Position numbers and translations under genes: made by a program
Virus record (IMG/VR): IMGVR_UViG_3300047440_000164
Location: 1-28,518 of that record
Strand: one strand, 5' to 3'
Origin: a virus
Length of the DNA stretch: 28,518 nt
The notes under the pieces: model-generated
What the model saw: only the letters and a program-made list of their open reading frames with translations
What the model was told of the DNA's origin: nothing
Database searches by the model: none
Shown here: piece by piece, positions 6,131 through 28,518 of the stretch
Numbering within the stretch: the stretch's first letter is position 1
Layout: the number at the start of each line of letters is the position of its first letter

Positions 6131-6258
6131 TGAGGTTGAGGTATTGGCGGAATTGGTGGGGACTGAAATGCTGGCTGCAGTGCTGCGGCGGATGCATCGA
6201 CTATGACGAGAAGTCAGTGCATTGGATGTGCGCTGATTGCGGAAAGGTAACGCGATGA
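6130..6258 (+). CDS. Tiny zinc-ribbon-like protein
   Basis: A 42-residue ORF whose ATG overlaps the preceding stop (TGATG at 6128) and whose TGA overlaps the terminase start (ATGA at 6255). It has a basic, Trp-rich N-terminus followed by cysteines at 14, 18, 19, 22, 34 and 37. The pairs C19-x-x-C22 and C34-x-x-C37 (in WMCADCGK) form a plausible zinc ribbon. The double stop/start overlap argues that it is translated. Function is unknown; a DNA- or protein-binding cofactor of packaging is possible but unproven. Confidence 0.6.
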   Translation: MRLRYWRNWWGLKCWLQCCGGCIDYDEKSVHWMCADCGKVTR

Positions 6259-7820
6259 ACAACCGGCATCTCACGCTGCTGCAGCGCAAGCGCGCGATCC
6301 TCAAGGCGCGCGAGGAGTTGATTGCGTTCACGCAGTTGATGATGCCCGACGCTGACCACGCCGATGATCCGGCCTATTCGCTGTATTCGCCGCAGCAATT
6401 TCACCGGGTCATCGGCGCTGGCCTTGAGGAGATCGACGCGCGCAAATTCCGGCGGCTGATCATCAAAATCGGTCCCCGGTTTGGCAAGACGACGCTGGCG
6501 TCGAATATGTTTCCGGCGTGGTACATCGGTCGCCATCCCGACAAGTCGGTGATCGTCGCCACCTACAATCAGACCTACTCAGAAGATTTGGGTCGCCGCA
6601 TTCGCGACATCATGCAGTCGCCCGCCTACAAGCAGGTCTTCCCCGATCTCGAAATCAAGCAGCGGTCGGCTGCGGTCAACCGCGTCGAGACGACGGCGGG
6701 CGGCATTGTGTTCTGCGTCGGTCGCGGCTCGGCCATCACCGGTCGCGGCGCGCATCTCATCGTGCTGGACGATCCAATCAAGGACCGCAAGGAAGCCGAC
6801 AGCGCCGTCATCCGCGACACGTTGTGGTCGTGGTACACGCAGGTGCTGCGCACCCGCCTGATGAACAAGACCGGCGTGATCGTGCTGATCACCACGCAAT
6901 GGACCGAAGACGACCTCATCGGTCGCCTCACCGATCCGCTCAATCCGTTCTACACCATCGACGAGGCGCGGCTCTGGCACAAGATCGATCTCCCGGCGCT
7001 GGCCGAAGATGACGACATTCTCAAGCGCGAGCCGGGCGAGAGCCTGTGGCCGGAGCGGTTCGACAAGGAATATCTGGAAGAAATTCGCGTCAGCGATCCG
7101 CGCGGCTTCAATGCCCTCTATCAGGGCCGACCGTCACCGCGCGAGGGTGCGTTCTTCCGCGCCGAGGATATGATCACCTACAACTCGATGCGCGATCTGC
7201 CCGCGCATGAGGAGATGCGCTTTTACGGCGCGAGCGATCACGCGGTGACGCAGGAGCGGCAAGGCGACAAGACCTGCCTGATGGTGGTTGGCGTCGACAA
7301 GGCCGATCATCTGTGGATCATGCCCGATGTGATCTGGCATCGGCTCGATAGCAACGTCGCGGTCGAGAGCATGCTGATCCTGATCGAAAAATATAAGCCG
7401 CAATTCTGGTGGGCTGAGAACGGTCAGGTCACCAAGTCCATCGCGCCGTTTTTGCGCAAGCGCATGCTGGAGAAGCGCGTGTTCTGCGCCATCGATCCGA
7501 TCACACCCGCACAGGACAAGCAGCAGCGCGCGCAGTCGATCCAAGCGCGCGCGGCAATGAAGATGGTGCACTTCCCCGGCTGGACGAGATGGTGGGGCGA
7601 GGCGCAAGATCAGATTTTGAAATTCCCGCTGGGCAACAAGGACGACTTCGTCGACACCTTGGCGCTCATCGGGCTGGGACTAAACAAGATGAGGCCGCGA
7701 ACCAAGCAGCGGCCTGTGACGCCAGTCGTTGCGGAAGGCACGTTCCGCGCACTGCTTGCGGGCACCAGACGTCGCGAGGGGCTTGACCGGCGCAAGAGGA
7801 GCCTCAACGGATGGCTGTAG
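6255..7820 (+). CDS. terL: Terminase large subunit
   Basis: A 521-residue packaging motor. The ATG at 6255 is preferred over an upstream TTG because of the GGAAAGG ribosome site and ATGA overlap. The N-terminal ATPase domain shows a Walker A variant GPRFGKTT at 73-80, Walker B LIVLDDPI at 168-175 and the coupling motif TTQW at 213-216. The C-terminal nuclease domain has a first acidic residue at Asp328 (GASDHAV), an acidic residue in WWAENGQ near 396, and a late acidic cluster in KDDFVDTLALIG. It cuts concatemeric DNA and drives it through the portal, encoded next with a 10-base overlap. Length and motif order are normal for the family. Confidence 0.93.
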   Translation: MNNRHLTLLQRKRAILKAREELIAFTQLMMPDADHADDPAYSLYSPQQFHRVIGAGLEEIDARKFRRLIIKIGPRFGKTTLASNMFPAWYIGRHPDKSVIVATYNQTYSEDLGRRIRDIMQSPAYKQVFPDLEIKQRSAAVNRVETTAGGIVFCVGRGSAITGRGAHLIVLDDPIKDRKEADSAVIRDTLWSWYTQVLRTRLMNKTGVIVLITTQWTEDDLIGRLTDPLNPFYTIDEARLWHKIDLPALAEDDDILKREPGESLWPERFDKEYLEEIRVSDPRGFNALYQGRPSPREGAFFRAEDMITYNSMRDLPAHEEMRFYGASDHAVTQERQGDKTCLMVVGVDKADHLWIMPDVIWHRLDSNVAVESMLILIEKYKPQFWWAENGQVTKSIAPFLRKRMLEKRVFCAIDPITPAQDKQQRAQSIQARAAMKMVHFPGWTRWWGEAQDQILKFPLGNKDDFVDTLALIGLGLNKMRPRTKQRPVTPVVAEGTFRALLAGTRRREGLDRRKRSLNGWL

Positions 7821-17908: not shown

Positions 17909-18589
17909 ATGTGTGATCCGTTCACCGCTGGCATCATCGGCGCAATCGGCTCGATTGGCTCCGCTGTCGCAAACTACAGTGCGCAGTCGAGCGCGATGAG
18001 CAAGCAGAATGATGCCAACGCGCAGTGGATCGCGTTCCAGCGGCAGCAGTCGCAGGAGGCGTCAGCACGCGACGAGGCCAACCGGGCGCAGGCCATGGCG
18101 GCGCAGCAGCAATCACTGCAAAAGGTTTCCGGCCAGCAGCAGATGCAGCAACAGCAGACCGAGGAGAAGCGCGTCACCGAAGCCATCACGCCGGATCAAT
18201 TAAAGACACCGACCAACGTCGGCGACATGCTGCTGTCGGGTCAGAAAAGCGCCAACCCGCAAGTGTCGCAAGCGATGACCAACAGCATCACCAATGCGGC
18301 GCAGGACGCACGCCAGCGCATCGCCGCATTGGCCACCGTCGAAAGTTTCGGGCCGTCGCAGTTCGGCCTCAACAACTATGTCAACCAGTCGTTCCAGACC
18401 GGCAATCAGGGCATCGACCTTTACAACGATTACCGGCGCGGCGACCTCGCGGCCTACGGTGTGGCCAAGAACGTCGAGCCGATCCGCTATCAGGTCGCGC
18501 CGGGCGCGGGCATCTTCGGTGATCTGGCAACCGGTCTCGCCAAGATCGCAGGCACCGGCCTCACATCACGTCCATCAGGGGTAGTCTAA
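17909..18589 (+). CDS. Internal virion protein, T7 gp14-like
   Basis: A 226-residue protein beginning MCDPFTAG, then a glycine-zipper hydrophobic stretch (AGIIGAIGSIGSAVANYSA) that could insert into membranes. A long Gln-rich helical region (QQQSLQKVSGQQQMQQQQ) follows. This architecture is that of gp14-type ejection proteins, which form part of the DNA-delivery channel. It ends immediately before the next start (TAA then ATG at 18590). Assignment is by pattern and position. Confidence 0.7.
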   Translation: MCDPFTAGIIGAIGSIGSAVANYSAQSSAMSKQNDANAQWIAFQRQQSQEASARDEANRAQAMAAQQQSLQKVSGQQQMQQQQTEEKRVTEAITPDQLKTPTNVGDMLLSGQKSANPQVSQAMTNSITNAAQDARQRIAALATVESFGPSQFGLNNYVNQSFQTGNQGIDLYNDYRRGDLAAYGVAKNVEPIRYQVAPGAGIFGDLATGLAKIAGTGLTSRPSGVV

Positions 18590-24062: not shown

Positions 24063-24092
24063 ACTATAGTCATACAGACTATAGTCTTTCAA
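24063..24092 (-). promoter_or_regulatory. Sigma-70-type promoter with paired ACTATAGT dyads
   Basis: On the minus strand TTGAAA (24092-24087), an 18-base spacer and TATAGT (24068-24063), each hexamer 5 of 6 from consensus. The palindrome ACTATAGT occurs twice, at 24063-24070 over the -10 element and 24078-24085 inside the spacer, 15 bases apart. This arrangement could be a repressor operator. It drives the three tiny membrane genes. Confidence 0.6.
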
Positions 24093-24124
24093 ATAAAAAA
24101 CCCCGCCCGGTGAGGGGCGGGGTT
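24091..24124 (-). terminator. Rho-independent terminator of the 24130-24815 operon
   Basis: The minus-strand hairpin GGGCGGGG-style stem (24115-24122 with 24101-24108, 8 bp plus A-T pairs) is followed by TTTTTTATTT. There is no T-tract on the plus strand, so it serves minus-strand transcripts. It abuts the next promoter, whose -35 box overlaps the end of the T-rich tail. Confidence 0.85.
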
Positions 24125-24566: not shown

Positions 24567-24815
24567 TTATGCGGTTACGGTCACGTCTTCCCAGTTGGCT
24601 TTGAAGATTTGGTAGGTGTTGCCTGACTGGTCGGGTGCCTCGATCATGCTCCCGTAGGTCTCGCCGAGATCGCGTTTATTTTTTGCGATCAACCGCCGCG
24701 CGTCATCGACGCTGGTGGCTGGCCCGACCCTCGACGTGTACGTCTCTTTCAGGCCGTTCTTTTTTGTCGGGACCGATGTGACGTAAACCACATATGGCTT
24801 TGGCACGAATGCCAT
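24567..24815 (-). CDS. Small hypothetical protein (82 aa)
   Basis: It starts at ATG 24815 with an AGGAGA ribosome site. The composition suggests a compact alpha/beta fold: PYVVYVTSVPTKKNGLKETY is beta-like, then a helix at DDARRLIAKNKRDLG, then a closing strand (TYQIFKANWEDVTVTA). No family is recognised. It is the first gene behind the promoter at about 24897-24902 and operator copy 1. Confidence 0.65.
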   Translation of the reverse strand: MAFVPKPYVVYVTSVPTKKNGLKETYTSRVGPATSVDDARRLIAKNKRDLGETYGSMIEAPDQSGNTYQIFKANWEDVTVTA

Positions 24816-25150
24816 TGCACTTCTCCTGTTTCTGATTTGATTGTCAAAGAACCCGGCAATGTGCCGCACCAGTCGGACTTCCCGACTGACACAAAGAGTA
24901 TAGCACAGGTCGTGAGCGACCATTGGTCGGAGGTCACTTTTTGCGATTGTGACATCGATGCCGCAGCGACAACTTGCACGTTTTGAAAAAATGAAATTAC
25001 GAAATTGCTGGTACTTCTCGAACACAACCGCGCGCGATTGATTGAACAACTCGCGCGTCGATGCGCGCATCCCGCGGAATGCGTATTAGACTATTTTCTA
25101 TTTTGCGATTGTGGTTGTGACGAAAAAAGTTGGTTGAAGTCCGGTTGAAA
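24816..25150 (-). other. Noncoding regulatory region with repeats and stem-loops
   Basis: No convincing gene is seen in these 335 bases. The region holds operator copy 1 and an extended -10 promoter. A 7-bp leader hairpin (24870-24888, CAGTCGG stem) lies at the predicted transcript start. A 13-bp direct repeat TTTTGCGATTGTG occurs at 24939-24951 and 25101-25113. A 7-bp inverted repeat CGCGCGA (25031-25037 with 25051-25057) is also present. Its AT-rich patches differ from the flanking genes. Confidence 0.55.
24897..24929 (-). promoter_or_regulatory. Extended -10 promoter with operator copy 1
   Basis: On the minus strand TGCTATACT gives an extended -10 (TATACT at 24902-24897) about 80 bases before the ATG at 24815. 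The -35 area lacks a good hexamer but is covered by the dyad CGACCATTGGTCG (24917-24929), the same sequence found at 26592 and 26634. A bound protein here could repress or activate. Confidence 0.55.
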
Positions 25151-25363
25151 TCAGTCGCCGAACTTAATGACCTTCTTGACCGGTAGCGGCGGATCGATGC
25201 CGTGCAGCATGTCAACTATTTCGGTGATCGATCTCTGGTCAGCCGCACTGACGCCAACACGGAAATGACAACCCGGGTGCGCGATGTCGAAGTCGCGCAG
25301 GTGCTGCAGCCAGTCCTGCTCCAGTCCATCGGTGATGGTGGCGACGGTGAAAATTTTAGTCAT
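25151..25363 (-). CDS. Small hypothetical protein (70 aa)
   Basis: The ATG at 25363 lies inside the end of the upstream zinc-ribbon gene (8-base overlap), implying coupled translation. It contains GLEQDWLQHLRDFDIAHPGC and a polar alpha/beta pattern ending KKVIKFGD. Unrecognised. No clear terminator follows; a T-run (TTTTTT at about 25128) on this strand has no strong stem before it. Confidence 0.6.
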   Translation of the reverse strand: MTKIFTVATITDGLEQDWLQHLRDFDIAHPGCHFRVGVSAADQRSITEIVDMLHGIDPPLPVKKVIKFGD

Positions 25364-25615: not shown

Positions 25616-25653
25616 AAAGCAAAAACGCCGCCCGGTGGAGGGGCGGCGTTTGC
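25616..25653 (-). terminator. Rho-independent terminator after the recombinase/HTH operon
   Basis: An 8-bp stem CGCCGCCC (25626-25633) with GGGCGGCG (25641-25648), extended by three A-T pairs. On the minus strand it is followed by TTTTTGCTTT. It closes the recombinase, HTH and 23-aa peptide transcript. Confidence 0.8.
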
Positions 25654-25727: not shown

Positions 25728-25934
25728 TTAGTCTCCCAGTTTTTTGAGGGCTGATGCGCCGGATTTGCCGGTCGCCTTCAGGTAGTCGAGGAATGCCGTG
25801 ACCGGCCCCGGCACATGCCGGTCGCCGGAGATGTACCGCTCGATGGTGCGCTTCTCGCTGCGCAGCAGACGTGCAGCTTCGGCCTGCGACAGACCGAGGC
25901 GCGCGAGCGCCAGTTCGAATTGCGTGCCGGTCAT
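25728..25934 (-). CDS. Small HTH (XRE-like) DNA-binding regulator (68 aa)
   Basis: A helix-turn-helix spans about residues 14-38: GLSQAEAARLLRSEKRTIER has the typical Gln and Ala of helix 2 and a recognition helix with KRTIERY. It is followed by VPGPVTAFLDYLK. Length is that of a minimal Cro-like protein. The ATG at 25934 overlaps the recombinase stop (ATGA), so it is co-translated with the recombinase. It is the only clear regulator in the window and is therefore the best candidate to bind the three CGACC/GGTCG dyads, one of which lies in its own operon promoter. That link is inference. Confidence 0.8.
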   Translation of the reverse strand: MTGTQFELALARLGLSQAEAARLLRSEKRTIERYISGDRHVPGPVTAFLDYLKATGKSGASALKKLGD

Positions 25935-26560
25935 GCTGCCAGCCTTTCCTGCACGCGGATGACGGTGCGGGCCGACCACGGTGCGCCGGTCGGCGTGGCG
26001 ATCTTGCGCGTATTCAGTTCGCGGGCGATGGCGCGCGCCGACTGCCCAGCCAGCCCGGCGAACACCGGTCCCAATGCCAGCGCCCGCTCGACCGCCGCGG
26101 TGTGGTTGTCGCTCGCCTGCTTGGCGTTGCCCAACTGCACGCCGCGCGCCTTGGCCATGGCGAGGCCAGCCTTGGTGCGGTCGCTGATCATGTCGCGCTC
26201 AAGTTCGGCCACCGCGCCCAATATCTGCACGGTGAACTTGGTGGCGTGCGGATTGTCGCAGGCGACGAAGTCGACCTTGCTGTCCTGCAGGCTCGTGATC
26301 ATCGACAGCTTGCGCGCCAGCCGGTCCAGCTTGGCGATCACCAGCGTGGCCTTCTGCTTCTTGCAGGCCGCGAGCGCCGCGGCCAGCGCCGGGCGATCCT
26401 CGCGCTTGCCGCTCTCGATCTCGGTGAACTCGGCGACGATGCTCTTGCCGGTCGACGTCCCGAACTCGGCGACGGCCTTGCGCTGCGCGTCGAGGCCGAG
26501 GCCGGAGCGGCCCTGCGCTTGCGTCGAAACGCGGTAGTAAGCGATTAGGCTTTTAGTCAT
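25931..26560 (-). CDS. Serine recombinase (resolvase/invertase family)
   Basis: A 209-residue protein from ATG 26560 with AAGGGG upstream. The catalytic domain opens with LIAYYRVSTQAQ (Ser12 nucleophile). It contains the active-site arginine motif AKLDRLARKL and the long dimer helix region ERDMISDRTKAGLAMAKARG. The C-terminus (about 165-209) resembles a DNA-binding HTH (SARAIARELNTRKIATPTG). Size fits small resolvases/invertases, not large integrases. It may resolve dimers or invert a segment; no obvious inversion sites were found. Its promoter carries operator copy 2. Confidence 0.9.
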   Translation of the reverse strand: MTKSLIAYYRVSTQAQGRSGLGLDAQRKAVAEFGTSTGKSIVAEFTEIESGKREDRPALAAALAACKKQKATLVIAKLDRLARKLSMITSLQDSKVDFVACDNPHATKFTVQILGAVAELERDMISDRTKAGLAMAKARGVQLGNAKQASDNHTAAVERALALGPVFAGLAGQSARAIARELNTRKIATPTGAPWSARTVIRVQERLAA

Positions 26561-26584: not shown

Positions 26585-26613
26585 AATATACCGACCAATG
26601 GTCGCAAGGTCAA
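26585..26613 (-). promoter_or_regulatory. Recombinase promoter with operator copy 2 in the spacer
   Basis: TTGACC (26613-26608), a 17-base spacer and TATATT (26590-26585) on the minus strand, close to consensus. The dyad CGACCATTGGTCG (26592-26604 as read on minus) fills the spacer. The ATG follows about 25 bases after the -10. Confidence 0.75.
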
Positions 26614-26624
26614 TGAATGCCCCC

Positions 26625-26653
26625 TTGCACCCCCGACCGTTGGTCGGTACTAT
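26625..26653 (+). promoter_or_regulatory. Divergent promoter with operator copy 3 in the spacer
   Basis: TTGCAC (26625-26630), a 17-base spacer and TACTAT (26648-26653) on the plus strand. The spacer contains CCGACCGTTGGTCGG (26633-26647), dyad-symmetric except at its centre. Its centre is 42 bases from that of copy 2, about four DNA turns, so one regulator could control both promoters, perhaps cooperatively. Confidence 0.65.
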
Positions 26654-26681: not shown

Positions 26682-27050
26682 GTGATACGACCCCTGACGA
26701 TGGAGGACGAAAAGCGCATTGCGGCCAACCGCAGGCGTATGGCCGGTGAGCGGCGGGTGGTGCGCCGGGTGGTGCGTGACCTGCTGGCGGCTGGCTTTGC
26801 CCTCACCGTCGATGACGGCGGCGATGAGCCTGCCATCCGGCAGTCGACCGACGCCCGCAAGATCGAGGCCTGCCTGCTCAACACCGACGACGACCGCATC
26901 TACGCCAGCAAGCCGGGCGTGAAGACCGCCTTCGTGCGCTTCGTCTACGGCAACGATGCGTGGGAGGTGATCGCCGACTACAGCGTCAGCCTTGAGGATC
27001 ACCTCAAGGGCGCGTTCGATCTGTGCGGCAAGCTGGAGGCGCGGGGGTGA
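26682..27050 (+). CDS. Hypothetical protein divergent from the recombinase (122 aa)
   Basis: A GTG start at 26682 is chosen because GGAGAAAC lies just upstream and the predicted promoter ends at 26653. Earlier in-frame ATGs would lie in or before that promoter. The N-terminus is a very basic helix (RRRMAGERRVVRRVVRDLLA). The remainder is alpha/beta with YGNDAWEVIADYSVSLEDHL. No family recognised. Regulation by the dyad at 26634 is likely from position. A bidirectional terminator follows. Confidence 0.65.
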   Translation: MIRPLTMEDEKRIAANRRRMAGERRVVRRVVRDLLAAGFALTVDDGGDEPAIRQSTDARKIEACLLNTDDDRIYASKPGVKTAFVRFVYGNDAWEVIADYSVSLEDHLKGAFDLCGKLEARG

Positions 27051-27082: not shown

Positions 27083-27111
27083 AAAACCCCGGCAGCGATG
27101 CCGGGGTTTTT
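27083..27111. terminator. Bidirectional terminator
   Basis: A perfect 12-bp stem AAAACCCCGGCA (27083-27094) with TGCCGGGGTTTT (27099-27110), loop GCGA. T-runs follow on both strands. It can end the plus-strand gene at 27050 and the minus-strand tRNA transcript. Confidence 0.85.
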
Positions 27112-27114
27112 GTT

Positions 27115-27189
27115 TGGTGGGCGATGAAGGGATCGAACCTCCGACCTTCCCGGTGTAAACGGGACGCACTACCGCTGTGCTAATCGCCC
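27115..27189 (-). tRNA. tRNA-Val (anticodon TAC), CCA encoded
   Basis: On the minus strand all arms are intact. The acceptor is GGGCGAT/ATCGCCC, the D stem GCAC/GTGC, and the anticodon stem TCCCG/CGGGA with loop TTTACAC giving anticodon TAC. The T stem is GGAGG/CCTTC with one G-U pair and loop TTCGATC. Discriminator A and CCA are encoded (27115-27118). Length is 75 bases. It sits next to the integrase gene and is a candidate attachment site. Confidence 0.93.
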
Positions 27190-27194
27190 GGTTT

Positions 27195-27453
27195 ATTTTG
27201 GTGCGGATTTTGGTGCGCACGGTTCCTGCAAATCAAAAACCCTCTGCAACATTGGGCTTTCCTCTCACGAGCAAACTGCGTGTAAATAGCCGTGCTTTCG
27301 ATTTTGGTGAACAAAATCAAGCAACGACGAGCAACGGCAAGCAACGATGTTCCCCCTCAGTTCACGTTGTTTTTGGTGCGCACCAAAATAAAGAACAAAA
27401 AGAAACCCCCGGCTTCGTGGGCCGGGGGTTGGGTTTCTGGTGCGCACCAAAAT
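27195..27453. repeat. Repeat-rich putative integrase arm / attachment region
   Basis: Copies of ATTTTGGTGCG occur at 27195-27205 and 27207-27217 (tandem, 12-base period). A degenerate inverted form GATTTTG-GTGAA-CAAAATC lies at 27300-27318. A perfect 18-bp palindrome TTTTGGTGCGCACCAAAA lies at 27371-27388, and a further partly palindromic copy at 27438-27453. Three GCAACG units at 27321, 27331 and 27341 have an exact 10-base period. The segment lies between the tRNA and the integrase end and holds no convincing gene. Confidence 0.6.
27390..27430 (-). terminator. Integrase terminator
   Basis: A perfect 10-bp stem AACCCCCGGC (27404-27413) with GCCGGGGGTT (27421-27430), loop of 7. On the minus strand it is followed by TTTCTTTTTGTTC. 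It lies 27 bases past the integrase stop. Confidence 0.8.
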
Positions 27454-27456
27454 CAA

Positions 27457-28518
27457 TCAGGCCATCTTGCGCCGCCGACCGAACCTGACGTTCAACACGC
27501 CGTCGAAGTGCCCCTCCATGTAGTGCTTGTAGTGCTTGTCGATGATCTGCACCGACACGCCACAATACTCGCTGACCTCATCCTTGGAGATGCCCGCCAT
27601 CAACAGCCACGAGATGCAGGTGTGGCGCAGGGTGTGGGGGGTGATCTCCTTGCCCAACCCGGCCAGATCACGCGCGTGGACGAAGCCACGGTAGAAGCCG
27701 CGGATAGGCTTGCCGTCCTTTTCGATGATCGAGCGCCGCGAAATCCCCAGCCGGTGCCAGCGCCGCATATGAGCCAGCAGTTCAGGACGAAGCGGTACGG
27801 TCGGCTGGCGCTTGTTGGTCGCCGATGATCCGTGAGCCTTGCGGTAATAGTGGCCACGCTCAAGGTCGACCCAGCCGCGGCCAATGGCACGCTCCGGTGC
27901 GGCATTACAGATCGCGGTAGCGCGAGTGCCGGTCTTGAGACCGACGAGGATGGCGCGGGCGACGTGGCGCATGGTGTGCCTGCCGGGCTTGCCGTCGCGG
28001 TTCTTCTGGCGAAAGCGCCATGCGGCGCGGACGAGCGCCGCGGCCTGCTCGACGGTAAGACAACCCTCTCGCGGTTGTGAGGGAGCGGGCAACGTCGGGC
28101 TGAACAGCAGGCGCAGACCGCCGCGCTTTCTGCTGTAGTCGTTGATCGCCGCTGCAAGGTGGTTAAGTTCGCGGCGGGCCATTGCGTCAGAACCGCGCTG
28201 CTTGGTGTAGGCCTCCTGCGTGTGAGGCGTCATCTCACTGATGGTGTAAGTGCCAAAATACACCAGCACGCGCTTAGACATCTTCTCGACGTCCCTGATG
28301 CGGCTCTCGCCACGTTTGTCGCCGGGCTGCATTTTCTTGCGCATGCGCTCGATCAAGCGCGGCGTATAGTAGCCGATGCAGTCGGCGATCACCGCTTGAT
28401 TGGGATCACCGTTGCCTTTCGCTTCCGGCTGCTCGATGACGTCGGCCCGGCACTCGGCGATGGCTTGCGTGATCGCGTCTGCCTTCTCTTGGACAGTAGG
28501 ATGCCTGCCGAGTGTAGT
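27457..28518 (-). CDS. int: Tyrosine recombinase / phage integrase, 5' truncated
   Basis: The frame is open to the window edge, so the start lies outside; 353 residues are visible. A GTG at 28392 would give 311 residues, but 42 further coding-like residues precede it. Numbered from that GTG, catalytic residues are Arg157 (KTGTRATAI), Lys194 as a possible strand lysine, His253 and Arg256 (HTLRH), and Tyr288 (DKHYKHY) as nucleophile. The usual GH before the tyrosine helix is GV (CGVSVQ), a variant I recall from other phage integrases. It would integrate or excise the element, probably at the neighbouring tRNA region. Its terminator and repeats follow directly. Confidence 0.92.
   Translation of the reverse strand, partial: TTLGRHPTVQEKADAITQAIAECRADVIEQPEAKGNGDPNQAVIADCIGYYTPRLIERMRKKMQPGDKRGESRIRDVEKMSKRVLVYFGTYTISEMTPHTQEAYTKQRGSDAMARRELNHLAAAINDYSRKRGGLRLLFSPTLPAPSQPREGCLTVEQAAALVRAAWRFRQKNRDGKPGRHTMRHVARAILVGLKTGTRATAICNAAPERAIGRGWVDLERGHYYRKAHGSSATNKRQPTVPLRPELLAHMRRWHRLGISRRSIIEKDGKPIRGFYRGFVHARDLAGLGKEITPHTLRHTCISWLLMAGISKDEVSEYCGVSVQIIDKHYKHYMEGHFDGVLNVRFGRRRKMA

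Follow-up and report, generated by a model that had tools for sequence, protein, structure and literature searches.

A small HTH protein as the likely repressor of promoter-embedded palindromes in a phage with a serine recombinase

Genes and sites of the window

The window, that is, the whole stretch of 28,518 bases analysed here, is an IMG/VR phage record that encodes large proteins of structural type. The features needed below are as follows, with coordinates in the window.

6237-7820: terminase-like protein, assigned by reading of the translation
24567..24815, minus strand: 82-aa protein downstream of operator O3
24916-24930: operator O3, overlapping the -35 region of a minus-strand promoter (-10 box TATACT at 24903-24898) ahead of the 82-aa gene
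25623..25651, minus strand: intrinsic-terminator-like hairpin 3' of the recombinase-HTH operon
25728..25934, minus strand: HTH protein of 68 aa, proposed repressor of O1-O4, with recognition helix RTIERY and Glu32
25931..26560, minus strand: small serine recombinase of 209 aa, invertase/resolvase type, with a Resolvase domain (Pfam PF00239, E=1.8e-30; phrog_125, DNA invertase)
26585..26613 (read 26613-26585), minus strand: promoter of the recombinase-HTH operon, TTGACC-17-TATATT
26591-26605, centre 26598: operator O1, CCGACCAATGGTCGC, CCGACC-AAT-GGTCGC
26625..26653, plus strand: promoter of the 122-aa gene, TTGCAC-17-TACTAT
26633-26647, centre 26640: operator O2, CCGACCGTTGGTCGG, CCGACC-GTT-GGTCGG
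26682..27050, plus strand: 122-aa protein with a GTG start, downstream of O2 (phrog_4158, 5680, 22565; homologues in the relatives G001 and G009)
27083..27110, plus strand: intrinsic-terminator-like hairpin 3' of the 122-aa gene
27457..28518, minus strand: tyrosine integrase, its 5' end past the window edge

The start of the HTH gene overlaps the stop of the recombinase gene (ATGA). The original prediction had described the 122-aa partner as a basic protein of no known family. Counted on the sequence it is net neutral, with 21 K/R against 21 D/E, and it has relatives among PHROG families without known function (phrog_4158 with E=1.3e-15). Searches of Pfam and PHROG found no HTH match in it, and the same two collections hold no match to the 82-aa protein downstream of O3. 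No convincing long inverted repeat was found that could bound an invertible segment for the recombinase.

Three further observations concern the surroundings. An intact tRNA-Val (anticodon TAC) lies at 27115-27189 on the minus strand, between the 122-aa gene and the 3' end of the integrase gene; it is a possible attachment site or a phage-borne tRNA. Direct and inverted GGTGCGCACCAAAAT repeats at 27200-27460 (L070 11633-11893) adjoin the 3' end of the integrase gene and may be attachment-site or arm-type repeats. At 24063-24124 on the minus strand a second promoter-like site, TTGAAA-18-TATAGT, carries a palindrome of its own, AGACTATAGTCT, and adjoins a terminator-like hairpin.

Two divergent promoters with an operator in each spacer

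Between the recombinase gene and the 122-aa gene two divergent sigma-70-like promoters, each with a palindrome in its spacer, had been predicted and are confirmed on the sequence. The minus-strand promoter reads TTGACC-TTGCGACCATTGGTCGG-TATATT in full and scores 10/12 in a consensus scan. The plus-strand promoter, TTGCAC-CCCCGACCGTTGGTCGG-TACTAT, scores only 7/12, below the threshold of that scan, which is a point against the reading proposed below. O1 and O2 take up the spacers, each ending directly at its -10 box. Their centres are 42 bp apart, as originally stated.

The motif CGACC-N3-GGTCG occurs three times in the window, O3 being the copy that the original prediction missed. Dinucleotide shuffles hold 0.05 copies on average and never three in 300. 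Some palindrome of 5-3-5 form nevertheless reaches three copies in 118 of the 300 shuffles, so that the copy count of this one motif is weak by itself. The case for operators rests on position and on the relatives.

The closest relative, G001 from IMG/VR, is 98-99.6% identical to the window over shared blocks. It has four sites of the CGACC type, all at promoters: the three of the window and a fourth, O4, likewise missed by the original prediction, in a region just past the right end of the window. O4 lies inside the promoter TTGACC-18-TATTAT upstream of a 140-aa gene without a family match, which is followed by the integrase gene. O1 is unchanged between the two phages. In O2 two of the three centre bases differ while the arms are identical, and the -10 box of the plus promoter changes by one base, from TACTAT in the window to TACAAT in G001. 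A 230-aa protein similar to phrog_2319 is encoded in G001 between O2 and the 122-aa gene (L070 10430-11122) and is absent from the window, so this operon is variable.

A second operator type in related phages

Searches with the recombinase and with the 122-aa protein reached relatives whose recombinases are 59-84% identical. In all of them the recombinase is followed by a homologue of the 68-aa HTH protein, and none has CGACC sites. In G002, G004 and G009, and also in L299 and L301, a divergent promoter pair carries GGGCC-N3-GGCCC in the same place as the CGACC sites of the window. The exception, G003, has the recombinase and the HTH homologue, the latter with the helix RSARDW, but no GGGCC site at the corresponding promoter. 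A promoter of G009 similar to the O3 promoter also carries GGGCC-N3-GGCCC.

The distance between the operator centres is 41 bp in G001, 45 bp in G004, 46 bp in G009, L299 and L301 and 49 bp in G002. Because it differs between relatives the helix face is not kept, and the four helical turns on which the original prediction remarked are incidental. The opposite arm is no more constant. It encodes unrelated small proteins of 143 aa (G002), about 125 aa (G004) and 121 aa (L299, L301), and among these phages only G001 and G009 have a homologue of the 122-aa protein of the window.

In G001, G002 and G009 an operator also lies at the promoter of the excisionase/integrase operon, with excisionase-type matches in G002 and G009. 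This position is what an immunity repressor might occupy, one that silences excisionase/integrase and other promoters in the prophage, and the GGGCC and CGACC phages would then be heteroimmune. Related Cluster A phages that are heteroimmune likewise differ in their operator sets (PMC6550527). Against this role, G001 encodes a separate regulator of the XRE type (83 aa) at the distal end of its early region. This regulator has no operator copy nearby and is itself a candidate immunity repressor. In addition, most loci of the HTH family described below are short operons with one strict site, an arrangement that looks like autorepression. We regard a role of the 68-aa protein in immunity as possible but rather unlikely.

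Linkage of operator and HTH protein

The GGGCC operator was used for a scan of IMG/VR by DNA alone, with the pattern TTGAC-N5,6-GGGCC-NNN-GGCCC-TA. It returned 86 stretches, compared with six for a scrambled palindrome. Eighty loci were analysed (numbered L173-L252), and a homologue of the 68-aa protein was called at E<=1e-4. Such a homologue is encoded at 50 of the 80 loci, and these fall into 37 clusters at 80% identity, a clustering applied since IMG/VR contigs are fragments and some are mutually related. G002, G004 and G009 prompted the pattern and are not independent of it; their omission leaves the picture unchanged. The control loci give 1/80 for the CGACC 15-mer (G001 itself) and 0/6 for the scrambled pattern (50/80 versus 1/80, Fisher p=7e-19). 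In 43 of the 50 loci the HTH gene follows the promoter on the same strand. Over 44 scan loci the median distance from promoter to HTH gene is about 0.5 kb, mostly with one to three small, diverse genes in between. Although the pattern placed no constraint on the centre triplet, this is AAT or ATT in 37 of the 50 loci with the HTH gene as against 10 of the 30 without (p=5e-4). Short loci account for only part of these 30. Four of them (L194, L199, L209 and L233) have two or three copies each with the centres GCA, GGT or GCC; perhaps another repressor family uses the same half-site there.

The reverse test, a search by protein alone, yields 13 loci, of which 11 have the exact promoter-operator arrangement. 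Of the two exceptions, L293 extends only about 1 kb upstream, and G003 has the deviating helix. That the palindromes are chance matches inside promoters is hardly credible in the light of these results, even though the shuffles readily produce some 5-3-5 palindrome in three copies. Their position is conserved in seven phages, the scan was blind and controlled, and the sampling of related contigs is countered by the 37 clusters.

The same counts bear on the recombinase. Its homologue accompanies operator and HTH gene at 4 of the 50 loci and is absent from 46, and in 56 other recombinase loci the HTH homologue does not occur at all. The operators adjoin the recombinase gene in the window and could in principle be res- or hix-like recombinase sites. 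Tn3 resolvase provides a precedent, as it represses a divergent promoter pair. An odd 3-bp centre is, on the other hand, ill suited to a crossover with a 2-bp overlap; O3 and O4 are at a distance from the recombinase gene, and G002 and G003, with recombinases 84% and 81% identical, lack a CGACC site. Recombinase sites with autoregulation in the style of Tn3 resolvase are thus a very improbable explanation, and the recombinase is rejected as the binder on the linkage counts, in which the HTH family goes with the operator whether a recombinase is present or not.

Another candidate binder is a second conserved small HTH protein, of 80 aa in G001 and with relatives in G002, G003, G004 and G009. 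Its presence in GGGCC phages would agree with such a function. In the phages examined its gene lies a long way from the divergent operators, and it is the 68-aa family to which both linkage counts (50/80 and 11/13) belong, which leaves the 80-aa protein a very improbable binder. A mixed palindrome, GGGCC-AAT-GGTCC, a cross of both operator types, occurs at 18246 in G001 and at 25207 in G003, in both cases close to early genes and to the gene of the 80-aa HTH protein.

A scan with the CGACC 15-mer gives 87 stretches, nearly all single sites without the HTH gene, and its combination with the promoter gives five stretches that are unrelated. One contig from these scans, the 129-kb G012 (IMGVR_UViG_3300044835_000040), has five copies of CGACC-N3-GGTCGCTATA between 7998 and 112568, several of them directly downstream of -35 boxes of the TTGAC type. 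It encodes no homologue of the 68-aa protein, and its sites are a putative further set of promoter-embedded operators with a different regulator. Among 385 alphaproteobacterial genomes the exact GGGCC pattern occurs in none, which is about chance level, and 14 have a match to the HTH protein, mostly a distant one. Two of these, at the bacterial loci L285 and L288, encode distant RTxQDW homologues, each with a promoter some 490 bp upstream and TACGGC-(ATT/GTT)-GCCGTA in its spacer; judged by sequence, this is the same geometry with a third half-site. No plasmids were found, and few isolate phages.

The 68-aa protein as the probable binder

The 68-aa protein matches HTH_31 with E=1.3e-5, just under the Pfam cut-off, and its structural model is all-helical (pLDDT 96.6). 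In a profile search of the PDB the best solved sequence match is Aca10 (7XI5; E=8e-9 over 39 residues), followed by HigA2 (E=3e-7) and by Aca1, Aca2 and Aca3 at about 1e-3. A fold search places HigA2 first and superposes Aca2 at 0.9 Å over 56 columns and Aca10 at 1.8 Å with 32% identity; all Foldseek E-values are above 0.001, as expected for 68 residues.

The recognition helix conforms to R[TS]xRR[WYF] in 47 of the 50 GGGCC members. In the window and in G001 it is RTIERY, and among the phages with this HTH family only these two have CGACC operators. Position 32 is Glu in the window and Arg in the GGGCC members, and it aligns with Q37 of Aca10 and Q33 of Aca2. In Aca10 the exchange Q37W impairs operator binding, and R44, which aligns with R39 of the present protein, is essential (PMC9410881). 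The operator and the recognition residue have changed together, and the phage of the window appears to be a specificity variant that pairs Glu32 with CGACC. This is a single evolutionary event and not proof, but a change of the expected kind. Taken with the linkage, it makes the HTH protein, not the recombinase, very probably the binder and autorepressor.

Proposed mechanism

The 68-aa HTH protein is, in our judgement, quite likely the repressor of CGACC-N3-GGTCG in a circuit that would produce an early burst and then joint autorepression. Presumably as a dimer, it would bind the palindrome between the -35 and -10 boxes at three sites (O1, O2 and O4) and on the -35 region at O3, and so keep RNA polymerase off. 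In a cell that is free of repressor at phage entry the promoters would fire, and the recombinase and the HTH protein would be made along with the 122-aa protein, the 82-aa protein and the products of the integrase operon. As the HTH protein builds up, its own promoter and the others would shut together. The model treats the recombinase as cargo of this operon under autorepression.

Most likely, then, a small DNA-binding protein of the phage occupies the space between the promoter halves and in this way turns off its own gene together with several others of the phage. One repressor on both arms means joint shut-off and not a toggle. The original prediction had proposed that a single protein, with the HTH protein as the candidate, serves both promoters, and this part very probably holds. 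The stand-alone two-arm switch that it also envisaged is not supported, as the pair is one node of a regulon with at least four sites, the integrase-operon promoter of G001 included.

Significance

Dozens of further phage contigs show the arrangement, which is similar to that of the regulators encoded behind anti-CRISPR genes. A one-line DNA pattern leads to the repressor family, and the family leads back to the pattern. Such tight operator-repressor pairs offer a way to collect co-regulated phage genes, including candidate anti-defence genes and excisionases, from unannotated contigs. The natural specificity pair, Arg32 with GGGCC and Glu32 with CGACC, allows tests of DNA reading and of operator type against superinfection immunity.

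A wider interpretation is offered tentatively. A large, unnamed family of Aca-like phage repressors may read GGGCC-N3-GGCCC, with CGACC-N3-GGTCG as a variant, and mark short operons whose small genes change fast and in many cases serve anti-defence. In some phages the single autoregulated promoter would have been expanded to a genome-wide early regulon that includes excisionase/integrase. If so, anti-defence genes could be searched for by means of the operator, and position 32 would act as a specificity switch. Among the open-access papers whose text was searched, none was found to give the GGGCC operator with this meaning.

Comparison with known systems

Cluster A mycobacteriophages also have one repressor acting on several dispersed sites, with an operator sequence that varies between relatives (PMC6550527). 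Their stoperators are 20-30 asymmetric 13-bp sites in one orientation, mostly outside promoters (PMC6550527), in contrast to the four palindromes of G001, all of which are at promoters. The C-terminal HTH domain of the HigA2 antitoxin (PDB 5J9I/5JAA) supplies the top fold matches, but no toxin gene is recognised in the recombinase-HTH operon. The res sites of the Tn3 type accompany a recombinase gene, which the present operator mostly does not.

The lambda-type switch pairs two divergent repressor genes, whereas here an HTH gene stands in one arm only and the opposite arm encodes a protein in place of which other phages have unrelated ones. The lambda sites OR1-3 are clustered, unlike the dispersed single sites of the present phages. 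Lambda Cro, likewise a small HTH protein, has divergent early promoters as its targets. The QseC/QseM switch is a further possible analogue.

The closest resemblance is to the Aca proteins. We know of no control of excisionase/integrase by Aca1 or Aca2. Aca proteins are small HTH autorepressors that end anti-CRISPR operons, and in reporters each bacterial family tested had representatives that repressed their promoters (PMC9410906). The inverted repeats of Aca1 and Aca2 overlap the -35 and -10 boxes (PMC9410906, PMC8434428, PMC9410881). The Aca1 site, GGCAC-AAT-GTGCC, has the 5-3-5 form of the present operators with other half-sites. Aca2 is set apart by other half-sites and an extra dimerisation domain, in spite of its close superposition. 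Aca10 of Pseudomonas citronellolis is a 65-aa HTH protein encoded at an operon end, with the palindrome ATACGCTC-ATT-GAGCGTAT inside the core promoter (PMC9410881). Its DNA-reading residues R34, Q37 and R44 align with R29, E32 and R39, and it shares the promoter-embedded palindrome and the operon-end gene with the phage of the window. It differs in its half-site, in that a single promoter is described and in its linkage to known anti-CRISPR genes (PMC9410881).

The present protein, at 68 aa, is well below the 150 aa that bound the small HTH proteins of this group. Its gene closes a short operon of small genes, in the order recombinase, HTH gene and terminator-like hairpin, and an inverted repeat lies in its own core promoter (O1) as it does at 43 of the 50 homologue loci. 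Since no anti-CRISPR gene was identified among the partner genes, which have no informative match in Pfam, PHROGs, NCBIfam or PADLOC, and the sequence comparison covered Aca1-3 and Aca10 only, the protein is not filed as an Aca. By analogy it would nevertheless work as an Aca repressor or Cro does.
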